Assembly: GCF_001598255.1 (NCBI RefSeq)
Contig: NZ_BCYP01000029.1
Location: forward strand, 1 to 61,329
From: Mitsuaria chitosanitabida ATCC BAA-476 = NBRC 102408
GTDB taxonomy: Bacteria > Pseudomonadota > Gammaproteobacteria > Burkholderiales > Burkholderiaceae_C
Reading direction: 5' to 3'
Length of the DNA stretch: 61,329 nt
Shown: piece by piece, positions 15,245 to 61,329 of the stretch
Numbering within the stretch: the first letter of the stretch is position 1
How the letters are laid out: every line of letters starts with the position of its first letter
Translations under genes and position numbers: made by a program
The notes under the pieces: model-generated
What the model saw: the letters and a program-made list of their open reading frames with translations, nothing else
What the model was told of the DNA's origin: nothing
The model's database searches: none

Positions 15245-15286
15245 GCGGCGGGAACGCCCTGGCAGTACGCAAGAGAAGAAGACCCC

Positions 15287-16243: not shown

Positions 16244-16343
16244 AGGTCGGGCGCCGTGGGGCGCCGCATCGCCCGCGGTCGCGCGCGGGGCGCTTCTGGA
16301 CGTAGAGTTCGAGGCTGTCTTCCAGCCCGACCTTGAACGCGCC

Positions 16344-17033: not shown

Positions 17034-17135
17034 CCATCCGCTGTCAGCGTCCTTCAATCGTCGACATCGATGGGTCAATGACATTGGCCTCGGGTCTCGA
17101 CAGAGTCGCAGTCTTCCTTCCTGGAGGTGCTGCTC

Positions 17136-44431: not shown

Positions 44432-46009
44432 TCAGGCGGCCAGCAGGCCGTCGCGGACCTTGAACTTGGCGATGACCTCGGTCAGCGCCTGGGCCTGCTG
44501 ACGCAGGCTCTCGGCCGCCGCGGCGCTTTCCTCGACCAGCGCGGCGTTCTGCTGGGTGCCGCGGTCGATCGAGGCCACCGCCTCGTTGACCTGCACGATG
44601 CCGCTGCTCTGCTGCTCGGTGGAGGCGCTGATCTCGCCCATCAGATCGGTGACCTTGCGCACCTGGCTCATGATCTCGCCCATCGTGCGGCCGGCCTCGG
44701 CCACCAGCGCGCCGCCGGCGTCGACCTTCTCCACGCTGTCCGAGATCAGGGTCTTGATCTCCTTGGCCGCCTGCGCCGAGCGCTGCGCCAGCGCGCGCAC
44801 CTCGCCGGCCACGACCGCGAAGCCGCGGCCCTGCTCGCCGGCGCGGGCGGCTTCCACCGCCGCGTTCAGCGCGAGGATGTTGGTCTGGAAGGCGATGCCG
44901 TCGATGACGCCGATGATGTCGTGGATGCGCTTGCTGGAGCCGTTGATCTCCTCCATCGTCGTGATCACGCGGTTCACCACGTCACCGCCCTGGCCCGCGA
45001 CCTGCGCCGCCTGGTTGGCCAGGCCGGTGGCCTTGCGGGACGATTCCGTGTTGACCTGCACCGTGGCGGTCATCTGCGCCATCGAGGACGCGGTCTCCTG
45101 CAGCGCGCTGGCCTGGGTCTCGGTGCGGTTGGACAGGTCGTGGTTGCCGCTGGCGATCTGGGTGGACGCCGTGGCGATGCCGTCGGCGGCCTGCCGCACG
45201 CTGGTCACCATGGTCGACAGGTTGCCGCTCATGGACTTGAGCGCGCCCAGCAGCTGGCTCAGCTCGTCGCGCCCGGCCACGTCGATGTCCTCGCGCAGGT
45301 CGCCGTCGGCGACCGACTTGGCCAGCTTGATCGCGCGGTTCAGCGGACGGGTCACGGCGCCGCTGATCAGCCAGCCCAGCACGCCGGCCATCGCGGCGGC
45401 GGCCAGGGCCGCGGCGATCAGCAGCGACCGGTCGGTCGTGAACAGCTCGGTCGCCTCGCGGGTCTCGGTGGCGGAGCGGTCATCCTCGTAGCGGATGAAC
45501 TCGCCGGTGGCCGTCAGCAGCTGCGCCAGCAGCGGGCGGCACTCGTTGTTCATCTTCGTGACGGCTTCCTCGCGCTTGTTGTCCATCGCCAGACCGACGA
45601 TGGCCTCGGCGACGGCGCCGTACTTCTGCTCGATGCCGTCGAGCTTCTCGTAGAGCGTGCGGTCCTGCGCGGTGGTGTCCAGACCGCCGGTCAGGTCGGT
45701 CTTGAGCTTGGACAGGGAGTCCTTGACCTGCTTGTGCGAGGCCATGACGGCGTCGTACTCCATCTTGCGGTCGGACTCGGTGGTGACCAGCACCAGGTTG
45801 CGCGCCGCGATGGCCCGCGACTTGGCCGCCGATTCCAGCGCGATCACCAGGCGCTCGCGCTTGGCGACGCCGTTGAGGTAGCTCTCGAAACGGGTGTTGG
45901 ACTGGTCCAGCCAGTGCAGCGCGGCGCCGGAGACGGCCGCCACGATCACCGCCATGACGCCGAAACCCAGCCACAGCTTGGTCTTCACCTTGAAGGTCGA
46001 GAAGTTCAT
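44432..46009 (-). CDS. methyl-accepting chemotaxis protein
   Basis: A 525-residue chemoreceptor. TM1 is about 11-33, a four-helix-bundle-type periplasmic sensor about 34-190 (helices with [22 protein letters not shown]), TM2 about 192-214, a HAMP linker ([18 protein letters not shown]), then the methyl-accepting/signalling domain with the invariant hairpin tip [37 protein letters not shown]. There is no CheR/CheB-tethering pentapeptide at the C-terminus (ends KVRDGLLAA). Start 46009 has AGGGGGAA upstream and begins at the normal N-terminus. The ligand is unknown. Confidence 0.95.
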
Positions 46010-46359
46010 GTCGTTCCCCCTGCTTGCCGTTCTCACGCCCCGCGGACGGGCCTTCCGTCGCGGTGACCAGATATTGGGCGACCGCGACGAAGTTCTCAAT
46101 GCCGGACGGGCTTGGCCCGCCGTGCGCGTGCGCTGAACCCGGTGTGCGGATTTCGCCTACAAACCGGCCCCGGCGTACCGTACGGTGGACGGTTCTCCCT
46201 CTCAGCGAGCCCCGGCTGGCAGTCGCGACCCCGCCACGACGGACGCCGGAATCGGCGATGCCCGGTTCAAACCGGGCGTCCACAAGATTGAGGATGAAGC
46301 GGGCGCGGCGCGTGGCGCGGCCGCCTCACCGGGCGTCGCGGGAGCCGCCCCGAGGGCCC
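46010..46359 (-). other. intergenic region upstream of the chemoreceptor
   Basis: 350 bases between the glycosyltransferase operon end and the chemoreceptor start, both on the minus strand. It holds the chemoreceptor promoter, but I found no clear sigma28 (flagellar) or sigma70 box. A short palindrome ACCGTACGGT lies near 46175. No gene is supported. Confidence 0.4.
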
Positions 46360-47370
46360 TCAGGCCCCGAAGGCATGGGCCACGCCGGCCACCTCGCGCT
46401 CGAAGATCATGCGTTCGCGCTGCACCGCCTGACGGGCCGGGAGGGACAGGTCCAGATAGAGCTCGTACTGGCGCATGAGCTCGGTCGCGCCGGCGAAGAC
46501 CTGGTCCACCTGGTCGGGCTTGAAGTAGCACTCCTCGGGCAGCGCGTAGTCGCGCGCCGCACCCACGTCCAGCGCGAAGACGCAGCAGTCGCGCATCAGC
46601 GCCTCGCGCGCCAGGCGGTCCTTGCCGGGGAAGTTGCCCAGGTCGATGAAGAGCTTGCTGCGGCCCAGCGCCTCGTAGACCTGCGCCCGCGTCAGGCCGC
46701 GGATCAGGTGCACCTTGCAGCCCTCGATCTCGCGCTCCAGCCGCGCCGCGATGGCGCCCACGTCGTAGACCACCTTGTGATTGGCGTTGAGCGCGATGTC
46801 CGTCTTGGCCGAGCGCTCGAAGACCGGTTCGCCCTCGACCGGCACCGGCTTGCCCGGCGTGTAGTCCGACAGCGGCAGGGTGCGCAGGCACCCCAGCGCG
46901 CGGATCACGTCGTGCGCATAGCTCGACTGGTAGGTGTGCAGCACCCGCTCGCTGCGCAGCAGGTTCATGTTGATCTTGTTGACCGACAGGTACTCGAAGG
47001 CGTTGTCGATGCTCAGCCACCAGACCAGGGGCGTGCAGGGCTGGAAGTAGCGCAGCCAGTGCACATAGGTCTCCGCCAGCACCACGCAGGTGTCCGGCGT
47101 CATGGCGATCTCCTCGGCCAGCCGGACCTGGTACTTGGCGTAGTCGGCCACCGTGTTGGGCCGCGGCTGCAGCTTCAGCGCGGTGCCCGCGGTCAGGCCG
47201 TTGCGGCGGAACAGGTCGTCCACCGCCGGCAGGTCCGTCGGCAGCACGTACCAGACGCGGGCGTCGTGGCCCTGGCGGATCAGCGAGTCGGACAGCTGGT
47301 GCAGCGCCTCCGGGCCGCCGGTCTGCACGCCGTGGGGAATCAGGATGACGATCTGCTTCTTGGCGTTCAT
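46360..47370 (-). CDS. glycosyltransferase-like protein (GT-B type, family 1/4-like)
   Basis: A 336-residue soluble protein. It begins QIVILIPHGVQTGGPEALHQLSDSLIRQGHDARVWY, the N-terminal Rossmann domain of GT-B glycosyltransferases with the G-G-P-E loop. Its later half has KVVYDVGAIAARLEREI and SKLFIDLGNFPGKDRLAREALMRDCCVFA, where the usual E-x7-E donor site is replaced by K-D-R-x-x-R-E-A. ATG 47370 overlaps the previous stop by four bases (ATGA); a longer frame exists but is a shadow of the neighbour. The last gene of a three-gene overlapping operon. Donor and acceptor are unknown. Confidence 0.72.
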   Translation of the reverse strand: MNAKKQIVILIPHGVQTGGPEALHQLSDSLIRQGHDARVWYVLPTDLPAVDDLFRRNGLTAGTALKLQPRPNTVADYAKYQVRLAEEIAMTPDTCVVLAETYVHWLRYFQPCTPLVWWLSIDNAFEYLSVNKINMNLLRSERVLHTYQSSYAHDVIRALGCLRTLPLSDYTPGKPVPVEGEPVFERSAKTDIALNANHKVVYDVGAIAARLEREIEGCKVHLIRGLTRAQVYEALGRSKLFIDLGNFPGKDRLAREALMRDCCVFALDVGAARDYALPEECYFKPDQVDQVFAGATELMRQYELYLDLSLPARQAVQRERMIFEREVAGVAHAFGA

Positions 47371-48182
47371 CGCGGGCTTTCGGGGGAGGAGGCCGGCGCG
47401 GCGGCCGGCGAGATCGGGGGGGATGCGCCGTCGGCGGCGGTCAGCCGGGCCAGGCGCTCGCGCAGGCGCTGCGCGGCGGCCGGGGCGACGGCGTCCAGGC
47501 CGGGCAGCAGGTAGCCGCTGCGGCTCCTGACGATGCGGTCGGAGAGGTGGTCCAGCAGGAAGTCCGGCGCCTCGCGGTAGACGCTGGGCAGGTGGAAGAT
47601 CCCGTGGAAGCCGAAGGTGGGGAAGGGCACGGCGGGGAACTCGACCGAGAAGTGCTGCGCGATCGCCTTGGGCGCGAAGCGGCAGCCGGCCTGCTCCAGC
47701 ACCGGCCGCATCGTGCGGCAGATGAAGAGGTCCTCGGCCTCGGTCGGGTCCGGGTAGTCCAGTTGCGCGACCGCGTGGACCAGGCGCCTGGAGCGCCACG
47801 AGAAGCCGCCGTTGCCCACCTCGTTGTCGGGGTAGTTGGGCCAGGGCGCGCCGATGTAGTCGTAGTGCAGGAAGTGCGGCGAGAACTGGTCGGCGTTGAG
47901 CACGAAGCCGTCGTACTGGATCACCAGCACGTGATCGGCGCTCAGGTGCCCGGCGAGCTCGCGCGTGATCAGCAGGTTGTACTCGGTGATCGAGCGCAGC
48001 GTCGGCACCGGGATCACCGGCAGGCCGGGCCAGAGCTCGGGCCGGTCGGAATAGATCAGCACTTGGCTGAAGGGCAGCCCCTGCGCCTCCATCAGCCGCA
48101 TGCTGTGCAGCAGCGCCTGGCGCGCCAGCACATGCAGGTCGGTGTCGACGATGGCGACGGCCAGGCTGGGCTTGGCGGCCAT
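47367..48182 (-). CDS. DUF5672 protein, putative sugar-transferase-like enzyme
   Basis: A 271-residue protein of the DUF5672 type: SLAVAIVDTDLHVLARQALLHSM, TEYNLLITRELAGHLSADHVLVIQYDGFVLNAD, DYIGAPWPNYPDNEVGNGGFSWRSRRLV. The D-G-F-V and E-V-G-N-G-G-F-S motifs echo GT-A glycosyltransferases. Stop and start overlap the upstream gene (TGATG); GTG 48185 is a possible alternative start. Family function is not established, but it commonly sits in surface-polysaccharide clusters. Confidence 0.78.
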   Translation of the reverse strand: MAAKPSLAVAIVDTDLHVLARQALLHSMRLMEAQGLPFSQVLIYSDRPELWPGLPVIPVPTLRSITEYNLLITRELAGHLSADHVLVIQYDGFVLNADQFSPHFLHYDYIGAPWPNYPDNEVGNGGFSWRSRRLVHAVAQLDYPDPTEAEDLFICRTMRPVLEQAGCRFAPKAIAQHFSVEFPAVPFPTFGFHGIFHLPSVYREAPDFLLDHLSDRIVRSRSGYLLPGLDAVAPAAAQRLRERLARLTAADGASPPISPAAAPASSPESPR

Positions 48183-49336
48183 CACATCAGGTCCAGCAGC
48201 TGCTTCGTGACCGTCGCCCAGGAGAAGCGCTGCGCCAGGCGCTGGCGCGCGGCCTCGCGGCGGCCGGCCGGCGGCAGGCGGTGCTCGACCACCTGCAGCA
48301 TGGCCTCGCGCAGATCCTCCAGATCCGGCACGACGAAGGCGCCTACCGGCTGCGGCGCGTCGGCGTCGGTGCCGGGGCGGCTGTGCAGGCGATGGCAGAG
48401 CTCGGGCGGGGTGAAATCGTCGGTGGCGCCGCCGCCGCTGACGATCACGTGCGTGCCGCAGCCCATGGCCTCGAGCACCGGCAGGTTGAAGCCCTCGGCG
48501 CGGTAGGGGGAGAGGTAGGCGTCGGACAGCGCGTAGAGCGAGCGCAGCTGCGGCAGGTTCAGGCTGGTCGACAGCACCGAGATCCCGTCCCGCACCTGCG
48601 GCGTGTTGAGCTGCGGCGCGCGGGTGGCCATCTCGGCGAAGACGCGATCCACGCCGATCCCATACAGGCCCTGGTGGTCCTTGAGGATCAGCCGCACCGG
48701 CAGGCCCTGCAGGCGCAGCTCGGCGAAGGCCAGCAGGATCAGGTCGATGCCCTTGTTCCAGGTGGCGACGCCGACGTTGGTGAAGACGGTCTCGTGCGGC
48801 TGCAGGCCCAGCGCGGCGCGGGCGGCCTGGCGCTGCTCGGCCGTCATCGGGAAGAAGGTGTCGGTCTTGTAGCCGTGCGGGACCACGTGGACCTTGTCCG
48901 CGTCGAAGCCGTGGTCCACCAGCCGGGCCTTGGACCAGCGCGTCGGCGTGACGACGAAGTCATCGCCCTGGGTCAGCGCGGCGGGCGGCATCTCGGGCGG
49001 ATCGAAGCTCTTGCCGGACAGGCCGAACTCGGTGACCACGAAGGTCGCGTTGCGCCGCGCCGCGGCCATGTCGCCCAGTCGGACCGGGGAGGCGATGCGC
49101 AGGCGCACGTCCACGACCTGGTCGCCGGGATCGGGCAGGGCGTCGATGACGGCGCGCTCCTCGGGGGCGAAGCCGGAATCCAGCTTGTTCTTGTCCCAGT
49201 GGGGCAGGAAGAAGGGCGCGTCGCGGTGGAACAGCTGGAAGCGCGGGTCCTTCGCCATCTCCAGGATCTGGTTCTGGTTGACCATCGCGATGGAGTGGTT
49301 CACCCCCCGCCAGCCCTCGATGCACAGTGTTTTCAA
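48182..49336 (-). CDS. glycosyltransferase, GT4 family (TTG start)
   Basis: A 384-residue GT-B glycosyltransferase. The N-terminal acceptor domain starts LKTLCIEGWRGVNHSIAMVNQ. The donor domain has HVVPHGYKTDTFFP, FTNVGVATWNKGIDLIL and SPYRAEGFNLPVLEAMGCG, the last containing the E-x7-E nucleotide-sugar site. No ATG stands at the right place; TTG 49336 with AGGGGA eight bases upstream fits best. First gene of the glycosyltransferase operon and 178 bases downstream of the giant octad-repeat gene on the same strand, so it may modify that protein or a surface glycan. Confidence 0.82.
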   Translation of the reverse strand: MKTLCIEGWRGVNHSIAMVNQNQILEMAKDPRFQLFHRDAPFFLPHWDKNKLDSGFAPEERAVIDALPDPGDQVVDVRLRIASPVRLGDMAAARRNATFVVTEFGLSGKSFDPPEMPPAALTQGDDFVVTPTRWSKARLVDHGFDADKVHVVPHGYKTDTFFPMTAEQRQAARAALGLQPHETVFTNVGVATWNKGIDLILLAFAELRLQGLPVRLILKDHQGLYGIGVDRVFAEMATRAPQLNTPQVRDGISVLSTSLNLPQLRSLYALSDAYLSPYRAEGFNLPVLEAMGCGTHVIVSGGGATDDFTPPELCHRLHSRPGTDADAPQPVGAFVVPDLEDLREAMLQVVEHRLPPAGRREAARQRLAQRFSWATVTKQLLDLM

Positions 49337-49453
49337 CGCGGAATCCCCTTTTGACGCTCCGGCCGCGCGCCCGGAGCCGGGGCGGCCATCCCATCGATGT
49401 CCGGCCGATTGTGTCGCGGCCGGCGGGCCGACCATCTTCGGATAAGGGGGACA

Positions 49454-49514: not shown

Positions 49515-52500
49515 TCAGATCAGCGCCGCGGCGCCGTCGTCCTCGCCGAGCTTGCGCATCGTCGCGTGGATCGCCGCGAGCGCGGCGTGGTGGACGTGGG
49601 TGCCGTCGTCCGAGGCGGCCGTGCCCGAGGCCGCGGCCGCGGCGGTGCTGCCCGAGGCGGTCGACGCGTGGGACGCGTCCGCCAGCACCGACGCGGTCGG
49701 CGCCGCCAGCACGTCGGAGGCGGCGATGTGCGCCTTGGCCTCGGTCGCGCTGGCGGTGCCGCTGGCCGTCGCGCCGTCGCCGGTCGACTTCGAGAACCAG
49801 ACGTCGCCCATCTGGTGGGTGACGCCGTCGGCCGTCTTGTAGCCGGAGATCAGGCCGATCACGTTGCCGTGGTCGATCGTCGAGCTGGCCTTGGCGTTCA
49901 GGTCCAGCTCGACGATGCCCAGCTCGGCCAGGGTCTTGAGCTCGCCCGTCTCGGTCTTGCCGTCGCCGTTGGCGTCGACCCAGACCCGCAGCTGGCTGAA
50001 GTTGGCGTCCAGCGCATTGAGCGCGTGGTCGCCGTTGGTGTCCATCGCGGCCATGGCCTCGTAGCCGTTGGCCGCGTGCTTGCCGTTGGCCAGGACGGTG
50101 CCGGTGCCGAAGAGCTCCGCGCCCGAGTCGATCTGGCCGTTGCCGTTGATGTCCCGCGCCAGCAGCCCGTTGCCGCCCGCCATCCAGCCCCATTGCTGGG
50201 CCTGGCCGGTGTTGTTCATGTCGAAGCTGACCCCGTGCTCCGCCGACACCGTGCCCAGCCCGTGGCCGTCCAGGTTCAGCATGATGGGCGTGGCCAAGAA
50301 CAGCGCGTCCAGCTGCTTGCCCGACATCGCGTGCAGCGCGTCCGTCGAGAAGGACAGCACCTGGTCCATGTTCAGCGCCGCCAGGTCGCGGGTCTCGAAG
50401 CCCACCACCGCGTCGCTGGTGATCGCGTGGATCTGGTCCAGCGTCAGCGCCTTGGCCTGGTCGCGGCTGAGCGCGGCCAGCTCGTCGCTGGACATGGTGG
50501 AGAAGCCCTCGGACGAGATCGCCGCCAGCTGCGCCGTGGTCAGCGCCATCACCTGTTGGCTGTCCATCGCGGCGATGGCGTCGCTGCTCAGCGCCGCGAT
50601 CGAGGCGTTGTTCAGGCCGTGCAGCACCTGCGTGCTCAGGCCGTGGATCTGGTCCGAGCCCAGGCTGGCGAAGACGTCCGTGGACAGCGCGTTCAGCGTC
50701 GTCGTGGTCAGCACGTGGAAGGCGCCGGAGCTCAGCGCCATGTAGTCCTCGGAACCGAAGCCCGAGAGCTGCGTCGTCGTCATCTCGACCAGCTGGGTGC
50801 TGGTCATCGCATGGACCTGGTCGGTGGTCAGGGCGGCGAAGTCGCCCACGCTCATGATCCGGATCGCGCTGCCGCGCAGCAGGGCGAAGTCCTGCGACTC
50901 GATCGCCGCGATCTGGTCCGTGCTCCAGGCCAGCACCTGCACATTGGTCACGCCCAGCATCTGCGCGGTGGTCAGCGCCTGGATCTGGTCCGTGGTCATG
51001 GCCGCGGCCTGCTGGTAGGTCAGGTTGCCGACCTGATCGGCCCGCAGCGCGGCGACCTGGTCGACCGTCAGCAGCGCGATCTGGTCGGAGCTCAACGCCC
51101 GCAGCGCGGTGGAGTGCAGCACCGCCAGGTCCTGGGTCTCGATCGCGTTCAGGTGGGCCGCGTCGAAGGCCGCCAGCTGCGACGAGCGCAGCGCCGCGAA
51201 CTGCGCCGTGGTCAGCGCCGCGATGGCGTCGGTGGACAGCGCCTCCAGCTGCAGCGAGTTCAGCGCCGCCATCTGCTTGGGCGACAGCGCCGCGATCTGC
51301 GCCAGGTCCAGCGCGCCGAACTGGTCGCTGCTCATGCCGATGATGGCGCCCGTCCCCAGGCTGGCCAGCTGGCTGGTGCTGAGGTGGTCGATCTGGTCGG
51401 CGGTCAGGCCCAGCAGCTGCCTGGAGCTCAGCGCCGCGAGCTGCGCGTTGCTCAGCGCCGCGACGGCGTCGCCGGTGAGGGCGCCCAGCTGGGTCGAGCT
51501 CAGGCCCAGCAGCGCGCGGGTGTTCAGGCCGACGACGTCGGCCACCTCCAGGTTGGCGAGCTGGTCGGTGCTCAGCGCCGCCAGCTGCTTCGACGAGAAG
51601 ACGGCGAACTGCGAGGAGTCCAGCGCGTTCAGGTCGGCCTGCTGAAGCCCGGCCATCTGGGCCGTGGTCAGCGAGGCCACCTGGTTGGTGCGCAGCGCCG
51701 CGAACTGCTCCGGCACCAGGCCGTTGAGCTGGTCCGTGGTCAGGGCCTGCAGCGCCTGCACGGTCAGGCCGCGCACGCCGTCGGTGGACATGGCGTCGAT
51801 CTGCGACGGCGTCAGCGCCGCCACCTGGCCGGTCGACAGCAGCGAGGTCTGGCTGCTGCCGAAGGCGCCCACCTGCTCGCGGCTCAGCGCGTGCACCTGG
51901 GCCGTGCTCAGCATGATCAGGTAGCCCGGCTTGACGGCGGCCAGCAGGTCGGGGGTCAGCGCGCCGATCTCGTCGGTGGAGATCGCCGCCAGCTGGTAGG
52001 AGGTCAACGCCGCGAAGTGCTGCGAGCCCAGCGCGTTCAGCGTGTCGTGGTCCAGGCTGCGGACCTGGGCCGTGGTCAGCGCCGCGAGCTGCGCGTCGCG
52101 CATCTGCGCCACGCCGGTGGGGCCGAGCGCGTCCAGCTGGGTGCTCGACAGGCCGCGGATGGCCAGCGTCGTGATGCCTTGCAGCGCGGCCGCGCTGAGC
52201 GACTGCAGCTGGCTGTCCGTCAGGCCGCTGATCTGCAGCGTGCTCAGCACGCTGGTCTGCTGCGAGGTCATCGCGCCCACCAGCGAGACGTCCAGCGCCT
52301 GCACCTGCTGGCTGCTCAGCGAGCGGATCACCGTCGCCGACAGGGCACCGAAGTCCTCGGCCTGCAGGTGCGCGACCTGGTCGGTGGTCAGCCCGCGGAA
52401 CTGCTGCGAGCTCATCGCGGCGAACTGCGCCGTGGTCAGGGTGTTCAGCTCGTCGAAGGACAGGGCCGACAGCTGGCCGGTGGTCAGCGCGCGCACCTGG

Positions 52501-54023
52501 TTGCTGGTCAGCGCGGTGAGCTGGTCCGAGGTCAGCATCTCCAGCTGCGCCTGCGACAGCGTCGCGATCACGCGGGTGGACAGCGCCTGGATGGCCGACG
52601 GGGTCAGCGCGGCGAGCTGGGCGTCGGTCAGGTGGCTCAGCTGCAGCGTGCCCAGGGCGCCGGTCTGCGTGCTGGACAGGGCCGCCATCTGGTCCGGATC
52701 CAGCGACGCGAGCTGCGCCGCGGTCAGGCCCTTGAGCGCGATGCTGCTCAGCGCGGCCAGGTCGTCGGTGCTCAGCGAGTGGAACTGCGCCGTGCTCAGC
52801 GAGGCGAGCTGGCCCGAGGTCAACGCCGCGATCTGGGTGGTCGAGAAGGCCGCCAGGTCGTCGGTGCCGAAGGCGGCCAGCTGGCGCGTGGTGATGGCCG
52901 CGACCTGGATGGTCTTGAGCGCGCCGAGCTGGTCGGGGCTCATGGCCGCCAGCACCTCGGGCTTCAGGCCGGCCAGGGCCATGCTGCTCAGCGAGCGCAG
53001 CTCGTCGGTGCTGAACGACGGCAGCTGGCCCGAGTTCAGGCCGATCAGCTGGGTCGAGGTCAGGCTGGCGACCTGGGTGGACGTCAGCGCGTCCAGCTGG
53101 TCCGAGCTCAATACCGACAGCTGGGTCGAGTCCAGGGTGCGGATGCCCTTGGTGCCGATGACGGCCAGGTCCTGGCCCTCCAGCGCGGCCACCTGCGTGG
53201 TGTTCAGCGACTTGATCTGCAGCGTGCCGACGGCGGCGAACTGGTCCGTCGTCAGCGCGATCAGGGCGTCGGTGCCCAGCGTGCGGAACTGCTGGCTGGT
53301 CATCGCGCCGACCTGCTGGCTGGACAGCGACTGCACCGCGTCCGAGGACAGGTGCGAGACCGCCTCGGTGCTCAGGCCGCGCACGGCGGCGGTGGTCAGC
53401 GCCTGCAGCGCGGTGGTGGTCAGCGAACTCAGCTGGTCGCCGTTCAGGCCGCGGGTCTGGTTGCCGCGCAGGGCGCCGATCTGGTCGGTGCTCAGCGCGT
53501 TGAGCTGGTCGCTGCTCAGCGCGCCGATCTGGATCGTGTTGAGCACCTGCATCGAGGCGGTGCTCAGCACGCCCACCTCGTCGGTGGTCAGCAGCTGGAT
53601 CTGCTGGCTGCCCAGGCCCCGGATCTGCACCGAGGACATGGCCGCGACCTGCTGGCTGTCCAGCGCGCTGAACTGGTCGCTGGTCATGCGGCGCAGCCGA
53701 TCCACCGTCAGCGCGGGCATCTGGTCGGAGCTCAGCGCGTGGATCTGGTCGGTGGTCAGCACCGCCAGCGCGTTGGTCGTCAGGGTGCGCAGCGCCGCGG
53801 TGTTCAGCGCCTGGATGTCGGCCGTCTCCATCGCCGACAGATGGCCCGAGGCCATGAAGCTGAGCTGGCGCGCGTTCAGCGAGGCCACCTGCAGCGTGGT
53901 CAGCGCCACCACCTGATCGGCGCTCAGCAATGCCCACTGCGCCCCCGTCAGCGTCGCGAGCTGGGCGGTGGTGAGCGCGGCGATCTGATCGGGGGTGAGC
54001 GATCCGACGTCGAAGGTGGCCAT
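49515..54023 (-). CDS. giant octapeptide-repeat protein A with C-terminal calcium-loop domain
   Basis: A 1502-residue protein. After MATFDV, residues 7-1238 are 154 consecutive octads of the form x-[AG]-L-[ST]-[ST]-x-[QD]-[VIL] (AALTTAQL, HALSSDQM) without a single register shift. Residues 1239-1502 form a distinct C-terminal domain starting FLATPIMLNLDGHGLGT, with WGWMAGGNGLLARDINGNG, a D-x-N-G-D-H loop and D-A-N-G-D-G-K-T-E-T-G-E, like EF-hand/dockerin-type calcium loops of large secreted RTX-associated proteins. An Ala/Ser-rich linker and the tail MRKLGEDDGAAALI close it. No N-terminal signal peptide, so type I-like export is plausible. Start 54023 begins the repeat register; upstream codons to 54113 are unlike it; ribosome site weak. 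I recognise no family name for the octad. Confidence 0.9.
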   Translation of the reverse strand: MATFDVGSLTPDQIAALTTAQLATLTGAQWALLSADQVVALTTLQVASLNARQLSFMASGHLSAMETADIQALNTAALRTLTTNALAVLTTDQIHALSSDQMPALTVDRLRRMTSDQFSALDSQQVAAMSSVQIRGLGSQQIQLLTTDEVGVLSTASMQVLNTIQIGALSSDQLNALSTDQIGALRGNQTRGLNGDQLSSLTTTALQALTTAAVRGLSTEAVSHLSSDAVQSLSSQQVGAMTSQQFRTLGTDALIALTTDQFAAVGTLQIKSLNTTQVAALEGQDLAVIGTKGIRTLDSTQLSVLSSDQLDALTSTQVASLTSTQLIGLNSGQLPSFSTDELRSLSSMALAGLKPEVLAAMSPDQLGALKTIQVAAITTRQLAAFGTDDLAAFSTTQIAALTSGQLASLSTAQFHSLSTDDLAALSSIALKGLTAAQLASLDPDQMAALSSTQTGALGTLQLSHLTDAQLAALTPSAIQALSTRVIATLSQAQLEMLTSDQLTALTSNQVRALTTGQLSALSFDELNTLTTAQFAAMSSQQFRGLTTDQVAHLQAEDFGALSATVIRSLSSQQVQALDVSLVGAMTSQQTSVLSTLQISGLTDSQLQSLSAAALQGITTLAIRGLSSTQLDALGPTGVAQMRDAQLAALTTAQVRSLDHDTLNALGSQHFAALTSYQLAAISTDEIGALTPDLLAAVKPGYLIMLSTAQVHALSREQVGAFGSSQTSLLSTGQVAALTPSQIDAMSTDGVRGLTVQALQALTTDQLNGLVPEQFAALRTNQVASLTTAQMAGLQQADLNALDSSQFAVFSSKQLAALSTDQLANLEVADVVGLNTRALLGLSSTQLGALTGDAVAALSNAQLAALSSRQLLGLTADQIDHLSTSQLASLGTGAIIGMSSDQFGALDLAQIAALSPKQMAALNSLQLEALSTDAIAALTTAQFAALRSSQLAAFDAAHLNAIETQDLAVLHSTALRALSSDQIALLTVDQVAALRADQVGNLTYQQAAAMTTDQIQALTTAQMLGVTNVQVLAWSTDQIAAIESQDFALLRGSAIRIMSVGDFAALTTDQVHAMTSTQLVEMTTTQLSGFGSEDYMALSSGAFHVLTTTTLNALSTDVFASLGSDQIHGLSTQVLHGLNNASIAALSSDAIAAMDSQQVMALTTAQLAAISSEGFSTMSSDELAALSRDQAKALTLDQIHAITSDAVVGFETRDLAALNMDQVLSFSTDALHAMSGKQLDALFLATPIMLNLDGHGLGTVSAEHGVSFDMNNTGQAQQWGWMAGGNGLLARDINGNGQIDSGAELFGTGTVLANGKHAANGYEAMAAMDTNGDHALNALDANFSQLRVWVDANGDGKTETGELKTLAELGIVELDLNAKASSTIDHGNVIGLISGYKTADGVTHQMGDVWFSKSTGDGATASGTASATEAKAHIAASDVLAAPTASVLADASHASTASGSTAAAAASGTAASDDGTHVHHAALAAIHATMRKLGEDDGAAALI
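50310..54005 (-). repeat. array of 154 coding octads (24-bp units), diverged
   Basis: 3696 bases = 154 x 24 with perfect register. Position 3 is nearly always Leu (or Met/Phe/Ile), positions 4-5 Ser/Thr, position 7 Gln/Asp/Glu, position 8 hydrophobic. No obvious higher-order period, unlike the neighbouring gene, so this array looks older or less homogenised. Confidence 0.92.
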
Positions 54024-54120
54024 CTGTGGAACGAGTACTTCGGAGAGAACTTCCGGGAGGAAACCTGAGGTCTGTCGTCTGCGGCCATGGGGCGAGGCGC
54101 CCGCCGGCCGCAAACGGCAA

Positions 54121-54143
54121 ACCGGGGGCGCGAGGCCCCCGGT
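54121..54143 (-). terminator. intrinsic terminator after octad-repeat gene B
   Basis: ACCGGGGGC (54121-54129) and GCCCCCGGT (54135-54143) form a perfect 9-bp stem, loop of five, followed on the minus strand by TTTGCCGTTTG. It lies 14 bases after the stop of the upstream giant gene, so protein A likely has its own promoter in the remaining 97 bases (54024-54120). Confidence 0.75.
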
Positions 54144-54156
54144 TCCGGTGCGGTGC

Positions 54157-57100
54157 TTAGATCAGCGGGCCCGAACCGGACTGGTCGTCTTCATGCAGCT
54201 TCTTGTAGGCCGCGCTCATGACGTCGGCGTGGACCGTCGCATCCGTCGCCGTGCTGGCCGCCGCGGTCGCCGCCGCCGTGGTCACGGTCGCGGTGTGCGT
54301 CGTGCCGCCGGTCAGCAGGTTGGCCTCGGGCTGCGCCAGCAGGTCGCCCAGTTGCGGCGTCGTGCCGGTCGTGGCCGTGGTGCCGGTCGTCGCATGCTGG
54401 GTCGCGCCGTCCTTGGCCAGCCAGACGTCGGACATCTCGTGCGTCGTGCCGTCGGCCTTGGTGTAGCTCGACACCAGACCCACGACGTTGCCGTTGTCGA
54501 CGTGCGTGGTCTTCGTGGCGTTCAGGTCGAGGTCGACGATGCCCAGGTCGGTCAGGGACTTCATCTCGCCCGCCTCGACCTTGCCGTCGTGGTTGGCGTC
54601 CACCCAGACCTGCAGCTTGCTGAAGTCCGCGTCCTTGGCGTTGATGTGGCCGTCATGGTTGACGTCCAGCGAGCCCAGGGCGCCGAAGCCGTCCAGCCCC
54701 TTGCGGCCGTTCACCGAGGTGCCCGAGCCGAAGAGCTCGGAACCGTCGTCGATCTGGCCGTTGCCGTTGCGGTCCATCACCAGCAGACCGGTGTTGCCGG
54801 CGGTCCAGCCCCACTTGTCGGTGTGGCCGGAGGCGTTCAGGTCGAAGTTCACGCCGTTGGCCGCCGAGGTGGTGTGGATGCCCGTGCCGTCCAGGTCCAG
54901 CATGATCGGCGTGGCCAGGAACACCGAGTTGCGCTGTTCGTCGGTCCAGCCGGCACGCTGCTCGGAGGTCATCGCCAGCACCTGCTCCATGTTCATGGAG
55001 GCCAGGTCCTGCGTGTCCCAGCCGATGAACTGGTCGGAGGTCATGGCCACGATCTGGTCCGTGGTCAGGCCCTGCACCTGGATCGAGGTCAGCGCGTGGA
55101 TGTCCGAGGAGTCCATCGCCAGGATCTGGCTCGTCGTGAAGGCGTGCATCTGCGCCGAGGTCAGCGTCGCGAAGTGCTGGCTGGTGAAGGCGTTGATGTC
55201 GTCCGTCGTCAGGGCCGCGATCTGGTCGGTGCCCAGCGCATGCATCTGCGCCGTGCTGAACTCATGGACCTGGTCGCTGGACAGGGCCGCGATCTGATCC
55301 GTGTGGAAGGCGTGGATCGCCGCGGTGCTCAGCGCATCGATGCCGTCGGTCGAGATGGACGCGATGTCCGCCGTCTCGATGCCCACGATCTGGGCCGAGC
55401 TCACCGCGCTCCACTGCGCCGAGGTCATCGCGTGGATCTGGTCCGACGTGAAGGCCGCGAAGTCACCGGAGTCGAAGGCCACCAGGTTGGTGCTGCTGAT
55501 CGCCGCCAGGTCGCCGCTGTCGATCGCCATCACCTGGTCGGTGGTGAAGGCGTGCAACTGCGCCGAGGTCATGGACACGATCTGCTGCGAGGTCAGCGCC
55601 TGCACGTCGTCGGTCGCCATCTGGCTGACCTGCAGCGTGCTCAGGGCCGAGACCTGCTGCGTGCTCAGCGCCGCGATCTGGTCGGAGCCCAGCGCTTCCA
55701 GCTGCGCGCTGTCCAGCGAGCGGATGGCCGCCGTGCCCAGCATGCGCAGGTCGGCCGTCTCGAAGGCCGCCATCTGGGCCGTCGTCAGGCCGTCGACCTG
55801 GACCGAGGTCAGGGCCGCCGCCTGGACGGTGGACAGCGCCACGATCGCGTCGGTGCTCAGGGCGCCGATCTGCGTCGAGCTCAGGGCCAGCATCTGCGTG
55901 CTGCTCAGCGCGGCCACGTCGGCCGTCTCCATCGCCGAGATCTGCGCCGTCGTCAGGGCCTGCAGCTGGCTGTTGCTCAGCGCGCGGATCTGGCCGCTGG
56001 TCAGGGCGTTGAAGTCGTCGCTGGTCAGGTTGGCGATCTGGCCGGTCGTCAGGCTGGCGACCTGGGTGGTCGTCAGCGCGGCGATCTGGTCGGACCCCAG
56101 GGCGTCCAGTTGCGTGGAGGTCAGGGCGCGCAGGGCGGCCGTGCTCATCGAGCGCAGATCCCCGGTTTCCAGCGCCGCCATCTGGTCGGTCGTCAGACCC
56201 GCCACCTGGGTGGAGGTCAGCGCCGCCGCCTGGCTCGAGGTCAGGGCGACGATCGAGTCGGTGCTCAGGGCGCCGATCTGGGCCGAGCCGAGCGCGATCA
56301 CCTGGTTGGTGTTCAGCGCGGCGACGTCCAGGCTCTCCATCGAGGCGATCTGGCCGGTGGTCAGCGATTGCAGCTGCTGCGTGGTCAGGGCCTTGATCTG
56401 GCCGCTGGTCAGCGCGTTCAGGTCGTCGCTGGTCAGGTTGCTCACCTGGCCGGTCGTCAGGCTGGCGACCTGCTGGGTCGTCAGCGCGCCGATCTGGTCG
56501 GTGTGCAGGGCGTTGAGCTGGTCGCTGGTCAGGGCGCGCAGGGCGGCCGTGTTCAGGGACTTCAGGTCACCGGACTCGATGGCGCCCATCTGGTCGGTGG
56601 TCAGGCCCGCGACCTGCTTGCTGGTCAGCGCGGCGACCTGGGTGGAGGTCAGCGCGACGATCGCGTCGGTGCTCAGGGCGCCGACCTGGGCCGAGCCCAG
56701 CGCCGCCACCTGGTTGGTGGCCAGCGCCTGCACGTCGGCGGTTTCCATCGTCGAGACCTGGGCCGTGGTCAGCGCGGCGACCTGGCCGGTCGTCAGCGCC
56801 TTGATCTGCGCGCTGGTCAGCGCGTTCAGGTCGTCGCTGGTCAGGTTGGCGATCTGGGCGGTGGTCATCGCGGCGACCTGCTGGGTCGTCAGCGCGGCGA
56901 TCTGGTCGCTGTTCAGGGCTTCCAGCTCGGCGGAGGTCAGCGAGGCGACCTGGCCGGTCGTCAGCGCGCGCAGCTGGCCGGTGGTCAGCGCGGCGAAGTC
57001 GTCGGTGGCGAACTGGCTGATCTGCGTGGTCGACAGGGCCTGCAGCTGCTGCGAGGTCAGGGCTTCGATCTGGTCGGAGCCCAGGGCCTGCAGCTGGTCG

Positions 57101-60100
57101 CTGGTCAGGGCGCGGACGGCCGTGGTCGACAGGGCCTTCAGGTCGCCCGTCTCGATGGCGGCCATCTGGTCGGTGGTCAGGCCGGCGACCTGCTTGGTCG
57201 TCAGCGCGCCCACCTGGGCCGAGGTCAGGGCCACGATCGAATCGGTGCTCAGCGCGCCGACCTGGGCCGAGCTCAGCGCCGCCACCTGGTTGGTGGCCAG
57301 CGCCTGCACGTCGTCGGACTGCAGGGTCGAGACCTGGCCGGTCGTCAGCGCGGCGACCTGGTTGGTCGACAGCGCCTTGATCTGGCCGCTGGTCAGCGCG
57401 TTCAGGTCGTCGCTGGACAGGTTGCTGACCTGACCGGTGGTCAGGGCGGCGACCTGCTGGGTCGACAGGGCCTGGATCTGGGCGGTGCCCAGCGCGTCCA
57501 GCTGCGTCGAGGTCAGCGAGGCCAGGGCGTTGGTCGTCATCGCCTTCAGGTCGCCCGTCTCGATGGCGGCCATCTGGTCGGTGGTCAGGCCGGCGACCTG
57601 CTTGCTGTTCAGCGTGGCGACCTGGGCGGAGCTCAGGGCGACGATCGAGTCGGTGCTCAGCGCGCCGACCTGGGCCGAGTTCAGCGCCGCCACCTGGTTG
57701 GTGTTGAGCGCGGCGACATCGGCCGATTCCATCGTCGAGACCTGGCCGGTCGTCAGGGCCGCGACCTGCTGCGTGGTCAGGGCCTTGATCTGGCCGCTGG
57801 TCAGCGCGTTCAGGTCATCGCTGGACAGGTTGCTGATCTGGCCGGTGGTCAGCGCGGCGACCTGCTGCGTCGACAGGGCGGCGATCTGGTCGGAGCCCAG
57901 CGCGTCCAGCTGCGTGGAGGTCAGCGAGGCCAGGGCGTTGGTGCCCAGCGACTTCAGGTGGGCCGTCTCGATGGCGGCGATCTGGTCGGTGGTCAGGCCG
58001 GCGACCTGCTTGCTGTTCAGCGCGCCGACCTGCGACGAGGTCAGGGCCACGATGGATTCGGTGCTCAGCGCGCCGATCTGGGCCGAGTTCAGCGCCTGGA
58101 CCTGCTGGGTCGTCAGCGACTGCACGTCGTCGGACTGCAGGGTCGAGACCTGCGCCGTGGTCAGCGCGGCGACCTGGGCGGTGCCCAGGGCCTTGATCTG
58201 GGCGCTGGTGAGGGCGTTCAGGTCGTCGCTGATCAGGTTGGCGATCTGGCCGGTCGACAGCGCGGCGACCTGGGCGGTCGTCAGCGCGCCGATCTGGTCG
58301 GTGTGCAGGGCGTTGAGCTGGTCGCTGGTCAGGGCGCGCAGCGCGGCCGTGTTCAGGGACTTCAGATCACCGGACTCGATGGCGCCCATCTGGTCGGTGG
58401 TCAGGCCCGCGACCTGCTTGCTGGTCAGCGCGGCGACCTGGGTGGAGGTCAGCGCGACGATCGCGTCGGTGCTCAGGGCGCCGACCTGGGTGGAGCTCAG
58501 CGCCACGACCTGGTTGGTGCCCAGGGCGGCGACGTCGGCCGATTCCATGGTCGCGATCTGGCCGGTGGTCAGGGCGGCGACCTGCTGGGTGGTCAGGGCC
58601 TTGATCTGGGCGCTGGTGAACGCGTTCAGGTCATCGCTGGTCAGGTTGCTGATCTGGCCGGTGGTCAGCGCGGCGACCTGGGCGGTCGTCAGCGACTGGA
58701 TCTGGTCGCTGTTCAGCGCTTCCAGTTCCGCGGAGGTCAGCGAGGCGACCTGGCCGGTCGTCAGCGCGCGCAGCTGGCCGGTGGTCAGCGCGGCGAAGTC
58801 GTCGGTGGTGAACTGGCTGATCTGGCCGGTGGTCAGGGCGGCGACCTGGTTGGTGGTCAGCGCCTCGATCTGGTCGGAGTGCAGGGCGTTCAGCTGGTCG
58901 CTGGTCAGCGCGCGCAGCGTGCCGGTCGACATGGCCTTCAGGTCGCCCGTCTCGAAGGCGCCCATCTGGTCCGTGGTCAGGCCGGCGGCCTGCTTGCTGG
59001 TCAGCGCGGCCACCTGGGCCGAGCCCAGGGCGACGATCGAGTCGGTGCTCAGCGCGCCGACCTGGCCGGAGCTCAGCGCCGCGACCTGGTTGGTGTTCAG
59101 CGCCGCGACGTCGTCGGACTGCATGGTCGAGACCTGGCCGGTCGTCAGCGCGGCGACCTGGTTGGTCGACAGCGCCTTGATCTGGCCGCTGGTCAGGGCG
59201 TTCAGGTCATCGCTGGACAGGGTGCTCACCTGGCCGGTGGTCAGGGCGGCGACCTGCTGGGTCGTCAGCGCCGCGACCTGGTCGGAGTTCAGCGCGTCGA
59301 GCTGGGCCGAGGTCAGCGAGGCCAGGGCGTTGGTGCCCAGGGCCTTCACGTCGCCCGATTCCATGGCGGCGATCTGGTCGGTGGTCAGGCCGGCGGTCTG
59401 CTTGCTGTTCAGCGCGGCGACCTGCGCGGAGGTCAGCGCGACGATGGATTCGGTGCTCAGGGCACCCAGCTGGGCCGAGTTCAGCGCGGCGACCTGGGCG
59501 GTCGTCAGCGACTGCACGTCGTCGGACTGCATGGTCGAGACCTGGCCGGTGGTCAGGGCGGCGACCTGGGCGGTGCCCAGGGCCTTGATCTGGCCGCTGG
59601 TCAGGGCGTTCAGGTCGTCGCTGCTCAGGTTGGCGACCTGGCCGGTGGTCAGGCTGGCCACCTGGTTGGTCGTCAGCGCGCCGATCTGGTCGGTGTGCAG
59701 GGCGTTGAGCTGGTCGCTGGTCAGGGCGCGCAGGGCGCCGGTGGACAGGGACTTCAGGTCAGCCGACTCGATGGCGCCCATCTGGTCGGTGGTCAGACCC
59801 GCGACCTGCTTGCTGGTCAGCGCGCCGACCTGCTGCGAGTTCAGGGCCACGATCGAGTCGGTGCTCAGCGCGCCGACCTGGGCGGAGCCCAGCGCCACGA
59901 CCTGGGCGGTCGTCAGCGCGGCGACCTCGTCCGAGTGCAGCGTGGACAGCTGGCCGGTGGTCAGGGCGGCGACCTGGGCGGTGCCCAGGGCCTTGATCTG
60001 GCCGCTGGTGAACGCGTTCAGGTCATCGCTGGTCAGGTTGCTGACCTGGCCGGTGGTCAGGGCGGCGACCTGGACGGTCGTCAGCGCCTGGATCTGGTCG

Positions 60101-61329
60101 GAGCCCAGCGCGTCCAGCTGGTCGCTGGTCAGGGCGCGCAGCGCGGCCGTGTTCAGGGCCTTCAGGTCGCCCGTCTCGATGGCGCCCATCTGGTCGGTGC
60201 TCAGGCCGGCGACCTGCTTGGTCGACAGCGCGCCGACCTGCGTCGAGGTCAGGGCGACGATGTTGCCGGTGGACAGGGCGGCGATCTGGTCCGAGCCCAG
60301 GGCCGCGACCTGGGCGGTCGTCAGGGCCTGGACGTCGTTGCTCTCCATGTTGGCGACCTGGGCGGTCGTCAGGGCCGCGACCTGAGCGGTGCCCAGCGCG
60401 CGGATCTGGGCCGAGCCCATCGCGTTCAGGTCCTCGGTCGACAGCGCCTGGATCTGGGCGGTGCCCAGGGCGGCGACCTGGGCGGTCGTCAGCGCGGCGA
60501 CCTGGTCGGAGGTCAGGGCGGCCACCTGGTCGGTGGTCAGCGCGCGCAGCGAGGCGGTGCTCAGGGCCTTGACGTCGACGGTCTCGATGGCGCCGACCTG
60601 GTCGGTGGTCAGGCCGCCGACCTGCTTGGTCGACAGCGGAGCGACCTGCTGCGAGGTCAGGGCGGCGATGTTCTCGGTCGACAGCGCGCCGACCTGGGCC
60701 GAGCTCAGCGCGGCGACCTGGGCGGTCGTCAGCGCCTGCACGTCGTCGGACTGCAGGGTCGAGACCTGGCCGGTCGTCAGCGCGGCGACCTGGCTGGTCG
60801 ACAGCGCCTTGATCTGGCCGCTGGTCAGGGCGTTCAGGTCATCGCTGGACAGGTTGCTGATCTGGCCGGTGGACAGCGCGGCGACCTGGGCGGTCGTCAG
60901 CGCGCCGACCTGGTCGGTGTGCAGGGCGTTGAGCTGGTCGCTGGTGAGCGAGCGCAGCGCGGCGGTGTTCAGGGACTTCAGGTCGCCGGTCTCGATGGCG
61001 CCCATCTGGTCGGTGCTCAGGCCCGCGGCCTGCTTGCTCGACAGCGCGCCGACCTGCGTCGAGGTCAGGGCGACGATGTTGCCGGTGGACAGGGCGGCGA
61101 TCTGGTCGGAGCTCAGCGCGGCGATCTGGGCCGTCGTGAGCGCCTGCACGTCGTCGCTCTCCATGTTGGCGATCTGGCCGGTCGTCAGGGCGGCGATCTG
61201 GGCGGTGCCCAGGGCGCGGATCTGGGCCGAGCCCAGCGCGTTCAGGTCGTCGCTGGACATGGCGGCGACCTGGCCCGTGGTCAGCGCGGCGACCTGGCCG
61301 GTCGTCAGCGCGGCGACCTGGTCGGAGTG
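54157..61329 (-). CDS. giant octapeptide-repeat protein B with C-terminal calcium-loop domain (5' end outside window)
   Basis: The reading frame is open to the right edge, giving at least 2390 residues; an internal Met codon at 61260 is not the start because octads continue beyond it. The visible part is 263 full octads (54931-61242) plus a few more at the edge, then a 257-residue C-terminal domain homologous to that of protein A: FLATPIMLDLDGTGIHT, WGWTAGNTGLLVMDRNGNG, D-V-N-H-D-G-H-I-N, D-A-N-H-D-G-K-V-E-A-G-E, an Ala/Thr-rich linker and tail YKKLHEDDQSGSGPLI. Loops D-x-N-x-D/N-G are typical calcium ligands. No Cys was noticed in the repeats. Probably an exported surface or matrix protein; the export route is not in the window. 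Its N-terminus must be read from the next segment. Confidence 0.9.
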   Translation of the reverse strand, partial: HSDQVAALTTGQVAALTTGQVAAMSSDDLNALGSAQIRALGTAQIAALTTGQIANMESDDVQALTTAQIAALSSDQIAALSTGNIVALTSTQVGALSSKQAAGLSTDQMGAIETGDLKSLNTAALRSLTSDQLNALHTDQVGALTTAQVAALSTGQISNLSSDDLNALTSGQIKALSTSQVAALTTGQVSTLQSDDVQALTTAQVAALSSAQVGALSTENIAALTSQQVAPLSTKQVGGLTTDQVGAIETVDVKALSTASLRALTTDQVAALTSDQVAALTTAQVAALGTAQIQALSTEDLNAMGSAQIRALGTAQVAALTTAQVANMESNDVQALTTAQVAALGSDQIAALSTGNIVALTSTQVGALSTKQVAGLSTDQMGAIETGDLKALNTAALRALTSDQLDALGSDQIQALTTVQVAALTTGQVSNLTSDDLNAFTSGQIKALGTAQVAALTTGQLSTLHSDEVAALTTAQVVALGSAQVGALSTDSIVALNSQQVGALTSKQVAGLTTDQMGAIESADLKSLSTGALRALTSDQLNALHTDQIGALTTNQVASLTTGQVANLSSDDLNALTSGQIKALGTAQVAALTTGQVSTMQSDDVQSLTTAQVAALNSAQLGALSTESIVALTSAQVAALNSKQTAGLTTDQIAAMESGDVKALGTNALASLTSAQLDALNSDQVAALTTQQVAALTTGQVSTLSSDDLNALTSGQIKALSTNQVAALTTGQVSTMQSDDVAALNTNQVAALSSGQVGALSTDSIVALGSAQVAALTSKQAAGLTTDQMGAFETGDLKAMSTGTLRALTSDQLNALHSDQIEALTTNQVAALTTGQISQFTTDDFAALTTGQLRALTTGQVASLTSAELEALNSDQIQSLTTAQVAALTTGQISNLTSDDLNAFTSAQIKALTTQQVAALTTGQIATMESADVAALGTNQVVALSSTQVGALSTDAIVALTSTQVAALTSKQVAGLTTDQMGAIESGDLKSLNTAALRALTSDQLNALHTDQIGALTTAQVAALSTGQIANLISDDLNALTSAQIKALGTAQVAALTTAQVSTLQSDDVQSLTTQQVQALNSAQIGALSTESIVALTSSQVGALNSKQVAGLTTDQIAAIETAHLKSLGTNALASLTSTQLDALGSDQIAALSTQQVAALTTGQISNLSSDDLNALTSGQIKALTTQQVAALTTGQVSTMESADVAALNTNQVAALNSAQVGALSTDSIVALSSAQVATLNSKQVAGLTTDQMAAIETGDLKAMTTNALASLTSTQLDALGTAQIQALSTQQVAALTTGQVSNLSSDDLNALTSGQIKALSTNQVAALTTGQVSTLQSDDVQALATNQVAALSSAQVGALSTDSIVALTSAQVGALTTKQVAGLTTDQMAAIETGDLKALSTTAVRALTSDQLQALGSDQIEALTSQQLQALSTTQISQFATDDFAALTTGQLRALTTGQVASLTSAELEALNSDQIAALTTQQVAAMTTAQIANLTSDDLNALTSAQIKALTTGQVAALTTAQVSTMETADVQALATNQVAALGSAQVGALSTDAIVALTSTQVAALTSKQVAGLTTDQMGAIESGDLKSLNTAALRALTSDQLNALHTDQIGALTTQQVASLTTGQVSNLTSDDLNALTSGQIKALTTQQLQSLTTGQIASMESLDVAALNTNQVIALGSAQIGALSTDSIVALTSSQAAALTSTQVAGLTTDQMAALETGDLRSMSTAALRALTSTQLDALGSDQIAALTTTQVASLTTGQIANLTSDDFNALTSGQIRALSNSQLQALTTAQISAMETADVAALSSTQMLALSSTQIGALSTDAIVALSTVQAAALTSVQVDGLTTAQMAAFETADLRMLGTAAIRSLDSAQLEALGSDQIAALSTQQVSALSTLQVSQMATDDVQALTSQQIVSMTSAQLHAFTTDQVMAIDSGDLAAISSTNLVAFDSGDFAAFTSDQIHAMTSAQWSAVSSAQIVGIETADIASISTDGIDALSTAAIHAFHTDQIAALSSDQVHEFSTAQMHALGTDQIAALTTDDINAFTSQHFATLTSAQMHAFTTSQILAMDSSDIHALTSIQVQGLTTDQIVAMTSDQFIGWDTQDLASMNMEQVLAMTSEQRAGWTDEQRNSVFLATPIMLDLDGTGIHTTSAANGVNFDLNASGHTDKWGWTAGNTGLLVMDRNGNGQIDDGSELFGSGTSVNGRKGLDGFGALGSLDVNHDGHINAKDADFSKLQVWVDANHDGKVEAGEMKSLTDLGIVDLDLNATKTTHVDNGNVVGLVSSYTKADGTTHEMSDVWLAKDGATQHATTGTTATTGTTPQLGDLLAQPEANLLTGGTTHTATVTTAAATAAASTATDATVHADVMSAAYKKLHEDDQSGSGPLI
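55603..61242 (-). repeat. thirteen 17-octad (408-bp) higher-order units with two 168-bp insertions
   Basis: Each unit has 17 octads with position-specific words: 1 NALTSGQI, 2 KALxTxQV, 4 ST[ML][QE]SxDV, 7 GALSTDSI, 9 xxLxSKQV, 10 AGLTTDQM, 11 xAIExGDL, 12 K[SA]LxTxAL, 17 xNLxSDDL. Unit boundaries (plus-strand starts): 55603, 56011, 56419, 56995, 57403, 57811, 58219, 58795, 59203, 59611, 60019, 60427, 60835. Seven-octad insertions occupy 56827-56994 and 58627-58794. 13 x 408 + 2 x 168 = 5640 bases, exactly the span, with no register slip. Octads in 54931-55602 (28 units) are diverged and lack this pattern. Confidence 0.9.

Follow-up and report, generated by a model that had tools for sequence, protein, structure and literature searches.

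What might two adjacent giant genes be for, when nearly their whole length is one eight-residue unit repeated hundreds of times? The question is raised by a stretch of 61,329 nucleotides (the window), contig NZ_BCYP01000029.1 of Mitsuaria chitosanitabida, which is contig C29 of a 5.8-Mb genome and carries both genes, here called giant 1 and giant 2, on the minus strand at its far end. The giants are ALTTAQ-repeat (PF20080) proteins of a Roseateles-group bacterium. Structure modelling makes it very probable that each octad is one short N-capped helix followed by a tight turn in a long alpha-helical screw. From the genes linked to this repeat in other bacteria we infer glycosylation, export and a role at the surface, and a rod exported to the surface and glycosylated on Ser/Thr is a reading to which we give about an even chance.

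Two giants of a known repeat family

Giant 1 (54157-61329, minus strand) is truncated by the window end, so that its 5' part is lost and only the C-terminal 2390 residues are seen. Its N-terminus, 473 residues beginning MASLITNL, lies on another contig, at the edge of C30. Giant 1 homologues occupy open frames of 3157-3217 residues in all but three of the 16 genus genomes (13 of 16); shorter ones occur in the window's own genome (G000), G006 and G009, the first two of which are cut by contig ends. Giant 2 (49515-54023, minus strand) has 1502 residues from its likely start, the ATG at 54023, with a MATFDV beginning common to genus relatives; the open reading frame reaches a TTG at 54113. No signal peptide is visible by eye, and both proteins begin directly in repeats.

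The octads follow the consensus x-A-L-[ST]-[ST]-x-[QD]-[VIL] in both giants. A phase scan found 266 visible octads in giant 1 (residues 6-2133, at 54931-61314 on the minus strand), none of which fails a lenient pattern, and 154 in giant 2 (residues 37-1268 of the open reading frame, at 50310-54005, minus strand); a lenient count for giant 2 gives 156 octads from residue 21, one of them weak (GALRGNQT). One register dominates the eight phases (score 1230 vs 711 in giant 2 and 2156 vs 1198 in giant 1), and register-breaking insertions or deletions number zero in both blocks. An earlier note, made from the letters of this DNA, had counted 154 octads in one gene and at least 263 in the other in unbroken register, and the scan bears out both figures. 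Its description of the genes as consisting of octads is right for nearly their whole length and omits the end of each protein, where a domain of about 170 residues plus a tail follows the repeats. Giant 1 has Ser or Thr at position 5 in 263 of its 266 octads, and giant 2 in 106 of its 156.

The octad is not new. Pfam family PF20080 (ALTTAQ_rpt, 'ALTTAQ repeat') matches giant 2 at E 9e-205 (662.5 bits, 44 stretches) and giant 1 at E 0 (1878.7 bits, 79 stretches), both above the curated cut-off of 26.4 bits, and values of this size exclude a chance origin of the octads. The repeat of the giants is identical in kind to that of the family. By implication the earlier note took the octad for an undescribed repeat; because Pfam already describes it, and a designed protein in the PDB (9zem) shares it, that claim falls by the note's own standard. 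The same note was correct in setting the octads apart from the Gly/Asp-rich nonapeptide repeats of RTX proteins, as no RTX family appears in either giant among Pfam matches at E <= 1.

Several competing labels for the region were rejected. Several Pfam families, among them CAAP1 (whose 71 bits exceed its cut-off), LRR_EndoS and DUF7443, match with no single stretch that passes, and were taken as composition artefacts of the repeat; annotation by the CAAP1 score alone would mislabel the repeats of 49515-61329. PDB leucine-rich repeat matches (E 5e-7 and weaker, with one of 3e-9 in giant 1) were likewise taken as composition artefacts. Plus-strand frames of 2445 and 1500 residues have no Pfam match at E <= 0.001 and resemble the mirror frames of GC-rich DNA; they were rejected as genes because the PF20080 matches and the calcium domains described below sit on the minus strand. 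ARAGORN also calls a tRNA-Cys (53372-53461) and a tRNA-Ser (59225-59308) on the plus strand, opposite the repeat genes; these are most likely false hits in repetitive GC-rich DNA.

Of 60 relatives, 21 carry PF20080, among them every one of the 15 other genus genomes, as do 28 of 398 genomes sampled from the phylum. A tblastn search with giant 2 matched 111 plasmid records, many of them alphaproteobacterial, and the named loci nearest to the giants are in Roseateles, Mitsuaria and Rubrivivax records. Some homologues are annotated as 'heme utilization protein' or 'ICE nucleation protein', which are labels rather than tests. One ALTTAQ gene (L103) lies in a metagenome bin titled Bordetella parapertussis, a species label that looks doubtful. 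A literature search on PF20080 or ALTTAQ found no paper.

Predicted fold, helical period and C-terminal domain

An AlphaFold2 (AF2) model built with an alignment of 76 rows reached a predicted local distance difference test score (pLDDT) of 96.8 and a predicted template-modelling score (pTM) of 0.88, and placed 20 helices of 4-6 residues each across 21 octads. A single-sequence model of another segment (pLDDT 70.2, pTM 0.61) gave the same helix pattern. The earlier note had foreseen a short capped helix per octad in a compact solenoid, had read the strict octad length as a structural constraint on the repeat and had proposed structure prediction of the octads; the models agree with the first and returned confident helices rather than pure disorder, and the constraint on repeat length is supported too. 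The designed protein HeliScrew4 (PDB 9zem) has the same octad pattern (AALTPEQI, for example) and matches giant 2 at E 2.6e-16 over 109 residues and giant 1 at 2.3e-17, a match of sequence only, although its name suggests a helical screw. HeliScrew4 differs from the giants in being designed and in having 120 residues; moreover, 11 of its 13 units shown carry Pro at position 5, which is mostly Ser/Thr in the natural repeat. A literature search on HeliScrew found no paper.

Searches of structure libraries with Foldseek gave distant matches. The best was mesothelin (E 1.3e-3), which is described as a compact right-handed solenoid of short helices (PMC10035497). Mesothelin and the ARM-HEAT solenoids resemble the predicted screw in being compact solenoids of short helices, but they are irregular, with 11-16% identity and query template-modelling scores of 0.23-0.47, and mesothelin is a human protein; these values show no common ancestry with ALTTAQ. 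A viral structure library gave four matches at E <= 0.001, all to uncultured phage proteins with query scores of at most 0.40. Such weak matches are taken as no evidence of a new fold.

A longer period runs through the octads. In both giants the similarity between octads peaks at lags 17 and 34, with third place taken by lag 51 in giant 2 and by lag 58 in giant 1; identity at lag 17 within giant 1 is 0.643 against a median of 0.383, and the 17-octad super-repeat corresponds to 408 bp, which is also the spacing of the PF20080 matches. The analysis was extended to 69 best-phase runs from 54 loci outside those of the own genus, 60 of which were long enough, with one best-phase run taken per open reading frame and with octad order shuffled in up to 15 runs per set as the control. 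The profile of identity by lag has a period of 3.40 octads (r 0.691 vs at most 0.418 after shuffling), and a pass with off-phase runs mixed in also gave 3.40. The best single-run period was 3.4 octads in 43 of the 60 runs and another value in 17. The top lags outside the own genus were 17, 34, 51, 24, 10 and 27, and the favoured lags 7, 10, 17, 24, 27 and 34 all lie near whole multiples of 3.4. For the window alone the margin is thin (r 0.63 vs a shuffle maximum of 0.575), and a single Pseudomonas run has a period of 2.45 that is not significant (r 0.548, shuffles up to 0.541). We infer that the screw would take about 3.4 octads (about 27 residues) per turn, with an exact recurrence at 17 octads, or five turns.

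Charge varies with the same phase. When octads were phased by position 6, Asp/Glu in loci outside the own genus rose from 4% to 20% at position 4 and from 6% to 29% at position 7, while Arg at position 1 dropped from 23% to at most 6% on the acid-rich side; the octads of the window show the same trend. Because Asp/Glu at positions 4 and 7 and Arg at position 1 vary oppositely with phase, the screw seems to have one acidic stripe and one basic stripe, each on its own side. Position 6 has no part in this argument, since it set the phase.

After the repeats, both giants carry about 165 residues homologous to the self-processing module (SPM) of FrpC (6sjw_A), at 54406-54909 in giant 1 (minus strand, E 1.7e-33) and 49794-50288 in giant 2 (minus strand, E 1.5e-37). 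The published account of FrpC describes Ca2+-triggered cleavage of the bond between Asp414 and Pro415 (PMC7078468). In the ALTTAQ proteins, by contrast, the residue before the scissile Pro is Thr or Ser in 12 of 12 aligned tails, Thr in both giants, and across 93 junctions from 75 loci it is Thr in 67, Ser in 26 and Asp in none. Two EF-hand-like loops of giant 2, DINGNGQIDSGAE and DANGDGKTETGE, align with FrpC D462-E474 and D521-E532, so that the module has been kept, loops included, in proteins with no matched RTX repeat family. The C-terminal domain should therefore still bind Ca2+ and, because the scissile Asp has been lost, no clip-and-link reaction would be expected of it.

Linked glycosyltransferases and exporters

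The repeat family and the calcium domain are each already known; the genes that accompany them bear more directly on function. Among ALTTAQ-positive genomes, enzymes combining TPR with Glyco_transf_41 (GT41) were sought in all 5 other genera of the family, 6 of the 16 own-genus genomes and 14 of the 27 others, the 13 left out including weak and fragmentary ones. Among the matches listed, from which distances were taken and in which misses may be under-recorded, 11 of the 16 GT41-bearing genomes outside the genus have a TPR/GT41 gene no more than 15 kb from ALTTAQ. Under generous assumptions (gene number as half the matches, and 2 or 6 ALTTAQ loci per genome) about 2.1 of 16 would be expected by chance, and none of 2 million simulations reached 11. 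Counted by genus, the linkage holds among the matches listed in 8 of 9 genera outside the own genus, against 0.58 expected, with the first listed genome standing for each genus; for genus g159 that genome is the one of five with the linkage. GT41 also adjoins ALTTAQ in three of four fetched plasmid loci, two of which have type I secretion genes as well, and an ABC transporter gene with HlyD lies near ALTTAQ on Cereibacter and Pseudomonas plasmids.

Exporter genes recur in the same places. HlyD lies within 10 kb of ALTTAQ in four of six genomes of other genera tested. Genomes G022, G028 and G020, from three sister genera, share one arrangement, with GT41, ABC transporter, HlyD and outer-membrane protein genes in that order, followed by other genes and then ALTTAQ; in G424, GT41 and then HlyD with the ABC gene come directly downstream of ALTTAQ. 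The window's genome has an orthologous GT41-ABC-HlyD-OEP cassette on contig C7, away from the giants, with identities to three sister cassettes of 60-65% for GT41, 66-72% for ABC and 56-64% for HlyD, and of 63% between its OEP and that of G022. GT41 and HlyD are paired away from ALTTAQ in G001, G012 and G015 as well. Sugar genes were scanned in G022 and G028. In the G028 locus (L140) an FdtA-hexapeptide fusion and a DegT aminotransferase gene (15137-17201) stand between the type I genes and ALTTAQ, a hint that a dTDP-3-amino-sugar might be the sugar attached.

GT41 enzymes are generally tied to protein O-glycosylation. A precedent is FlmG of Caulobacter, a TPR and GT-B O-glycosyltransferase described as required and sufficient for flagellin O-glycosylation (PMC7591256). 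The ALTTAQ-linked enzymes resemble it in joining TPR to Glyco_transf_41, but the substrate of FlmG is flagellin whereas the octad substrate of the linked enzymes is putative. FlmG itself presumably belongs to GT41. No paper came up in a literature search on GT41 together with type I secretion.

In the window, giant 2 is followed by a tight set of three minus-strand genes. Directly downstream is a GT4-type glycosyltransferase (Glycos_transf_1, PF00534, E 2.4e-11; 48182-49435), which is overlapped by 4 bp by a DUF5672 gene (PF18922, E 2.2e-19; 47367-48185), itself overlapped by 4 bp by a third gene (MNAKKQIVILIPHG...; 46360-47370) that is glycosyltransferase-like by eye only and has no Pfam or NCBIfam match. 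The set follows giant 2 also in G001, G012 and G015, and is present in all nine of the closest named loci (L063-L071). Of the 16 genus genomes, 14 have a single DUF5672 gene: 12 carry it on the same contig as ALTTAQ, no more than 13 kb from listed repeats, and G009 and G013 carry it on another contig. None of six genomes of other genera tested has it. An open reading frame of about 1290 residues stands between giant 2 and the GT4-type gene in L063 (11082-14960, no Pfam match) and L064 (7859-11722) and is absent from the window.

Beyond the set, the window has a methyl-accepting chemotaxis protein (44432-46099, minus strand), as do genus relatives; in two other lineages, too, ALTTAQ genes have chemotaxis receptors downstream (L126:13319-14992 and L133:13516-14913). 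Some 3 kb away from where giant 1 starts, contig C30 encodes a lytic polysaccharide monooxygenase that carries GbpA_2 and CBM5/12 domains (L021:4403-5605, minus strand). No type I secretion genes were found beside the giants among the 10 window proteins and 10 contig C30 proteins scanned; a HlyD-type match at 1590-2048 of the window was set aside (36 bits vs a cut-off of 208.65, and 50 kb from the giants).

A proposed glycosylated rod and its rivals

These linkages suggest a route by which the giants could reach the surface. The chain would be made in the cytoplasm, where a TPR/GT41 enzyme and the linked glycosyltransferases would add sugars to Ser/Thr residues of the octads; the glycosylated chain would then leave through a type I secretion system. 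Outside the cell, Ca2+ would fold the FrpC-like C-terminal cap, without self-cleavage, and the octads would wind, hundreds per screw, into a giant surface rod covered with sugars. If each turn takes 3.4 octads and rises by about 10 A, an assumed value, intact giant 1 would have a length on the order of 100 nm. The parts of this proposal differ in strength: type I export is probable, and glycosylation of the octad Ser/Thr, for which gene linkage and the conservation of these residues speak, has even prospects. Taken jointly, the features would describe widespread mucin-like rods of Gram-negative bacteria, with an exact screw of 17 octads in 5 turns, conserved helix-start Ser/Thr to which a dedicated TPR/GT41 enzyme adds sugars in the cytoplasm, type I export and a cap derived from a once self-cleaving calcium module, in which duplications are tolerated mainly in whole turns (7, 10, 17, 24 or 27 octads) and the stripes thus stay aligned; we put this forward tentatively, as more probably wrong than right in its entirety. 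No report of the combination of an FrpC domain lacking the scissile Asp, a helix-per-octad screw of 17/5 period and a linked OGT-type enzyme with exporter was found in a literature search.

Several observations weigh against a glycosylated rod. Heavy glycosylation before export could hinder type I secretion, which exports unfolded chains. The linkage is far from universal: GT41 is beside ALTTAQ in none of six genomes of the own genus, G444, G251 and G329 have ALTTAQ and no GT41 among the matches listed, the two lie 27 kb apart in G026, and in g159 they share a contig within 15 kb in one of five genomes. The fourth fetched plasmid locus, an unannotated one from Sinorhizobium (L034), has no GT41 by tblastn, and G404 and G027 are without a strong HlyD near ALTTAQ. 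In 75 named loci searched by tblastn up to 10 kb downstream, GT41 was found in 9, ABC with HlyD in 9 and either in 13. Among 148 downstream proteins from 55 loci (148 of 160 open reading frames by a GC-position rule, 55 of 57 loci; without a random-gene control and descriptive only), only 4 were GT41 and 7 were GT2. Because the named loci and the fourth plasmid show the linkage less often than the whole genomes did, confidence in the proposal was lowered. The 3.4-octad period, furthermore, is a property of the sequence from which the number of turns is derived, and the 17-octad period could have come from gene growth by duplication.

The strongest rival, somewhat improbable in our estimate, leaves the giants unglycosylated. 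The products of the linked genes (glycosyltransferases, sugar-nucleotide enzymes and acyltransferases) would instead make a polysaccharide for the cell surface, which the screw, as an exported scaffold or lectin, would hold. The downstream proteins fit this, since beside the 7 GT2 enzymes they include 10 hexapeptide acyltransferases, 4 FdtA and 3 GDP-mannose dehydratases, genes typical of polysaccharide clusters, and rfb genes lie near the Cereibacter locus. However, the enzyme linked in 8 of the 9 genera belongs to GT41, a family of OGT-like enzymes, and Ser/Thr at position 5 in 263 of 266 giant 1 octads seems beyond the need of the fold, because HeliScrew4 mostly has Pro there.

Less likely still is that the giants are unglycosylated mechanical stalks or adhesins exported by type I secretion, with unrelated glycosyltransferase genes nearby as surface genes cluster in genomic islands. 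Their size, repetition and calcium domain would suit giant type I adhesins, and ABC with HlyD is found near 9 of the 75 related loci and on the Cereibacter and Pseudomonas plasmids; but the tight three-gene set after the giants in the genus, with its two 4-bp overlaps, and the fact that single-copy DUF5672 shares a contig with ALTTAQ in 12 of the 14 genomes where it occurs, argue against this reading. An ice-binding or ice-nucleating protein, as the names of several plasmid homologues ('ICE nucleation protein' in Cereibacter) and the common Thr-Thr pairs of the octads might suggest, is highly improbable, since ice nucleators are beta-solenoids, the octads are predicted with high confidence to be all-alpha and the Pfam matches at E <= 1 include no ice-nucleation family.

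The proposed glycosylated rod has its nearest analogy in the serine-rich repeat glycoproteins of Gram-positive bacteria, described as O-glycosylated surface proteins with Ser-rich repeats and a dedicated export route. This is an analogy only, as those proteins use accessory Sec export and have neither an octad screw nor an FrpC-type domain. If the octads are glycosylated, the giants would be a Gram-negative counterpart of these glycoproteins and would offer protein design a natural screw scaffold that can be extended. PF20080 meanwhile gains a fold predicted with confidence, a superhelical period open to checking on an existing PDB entry (9zem) and candidate partners in GT41, type I export and the FrpC-type calcium cap, a domain used in 75 loci without the residue that clip-and-link chemistry needs. 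Roseateles and its kin are tractable environmental bacteria in which this family may be studied.

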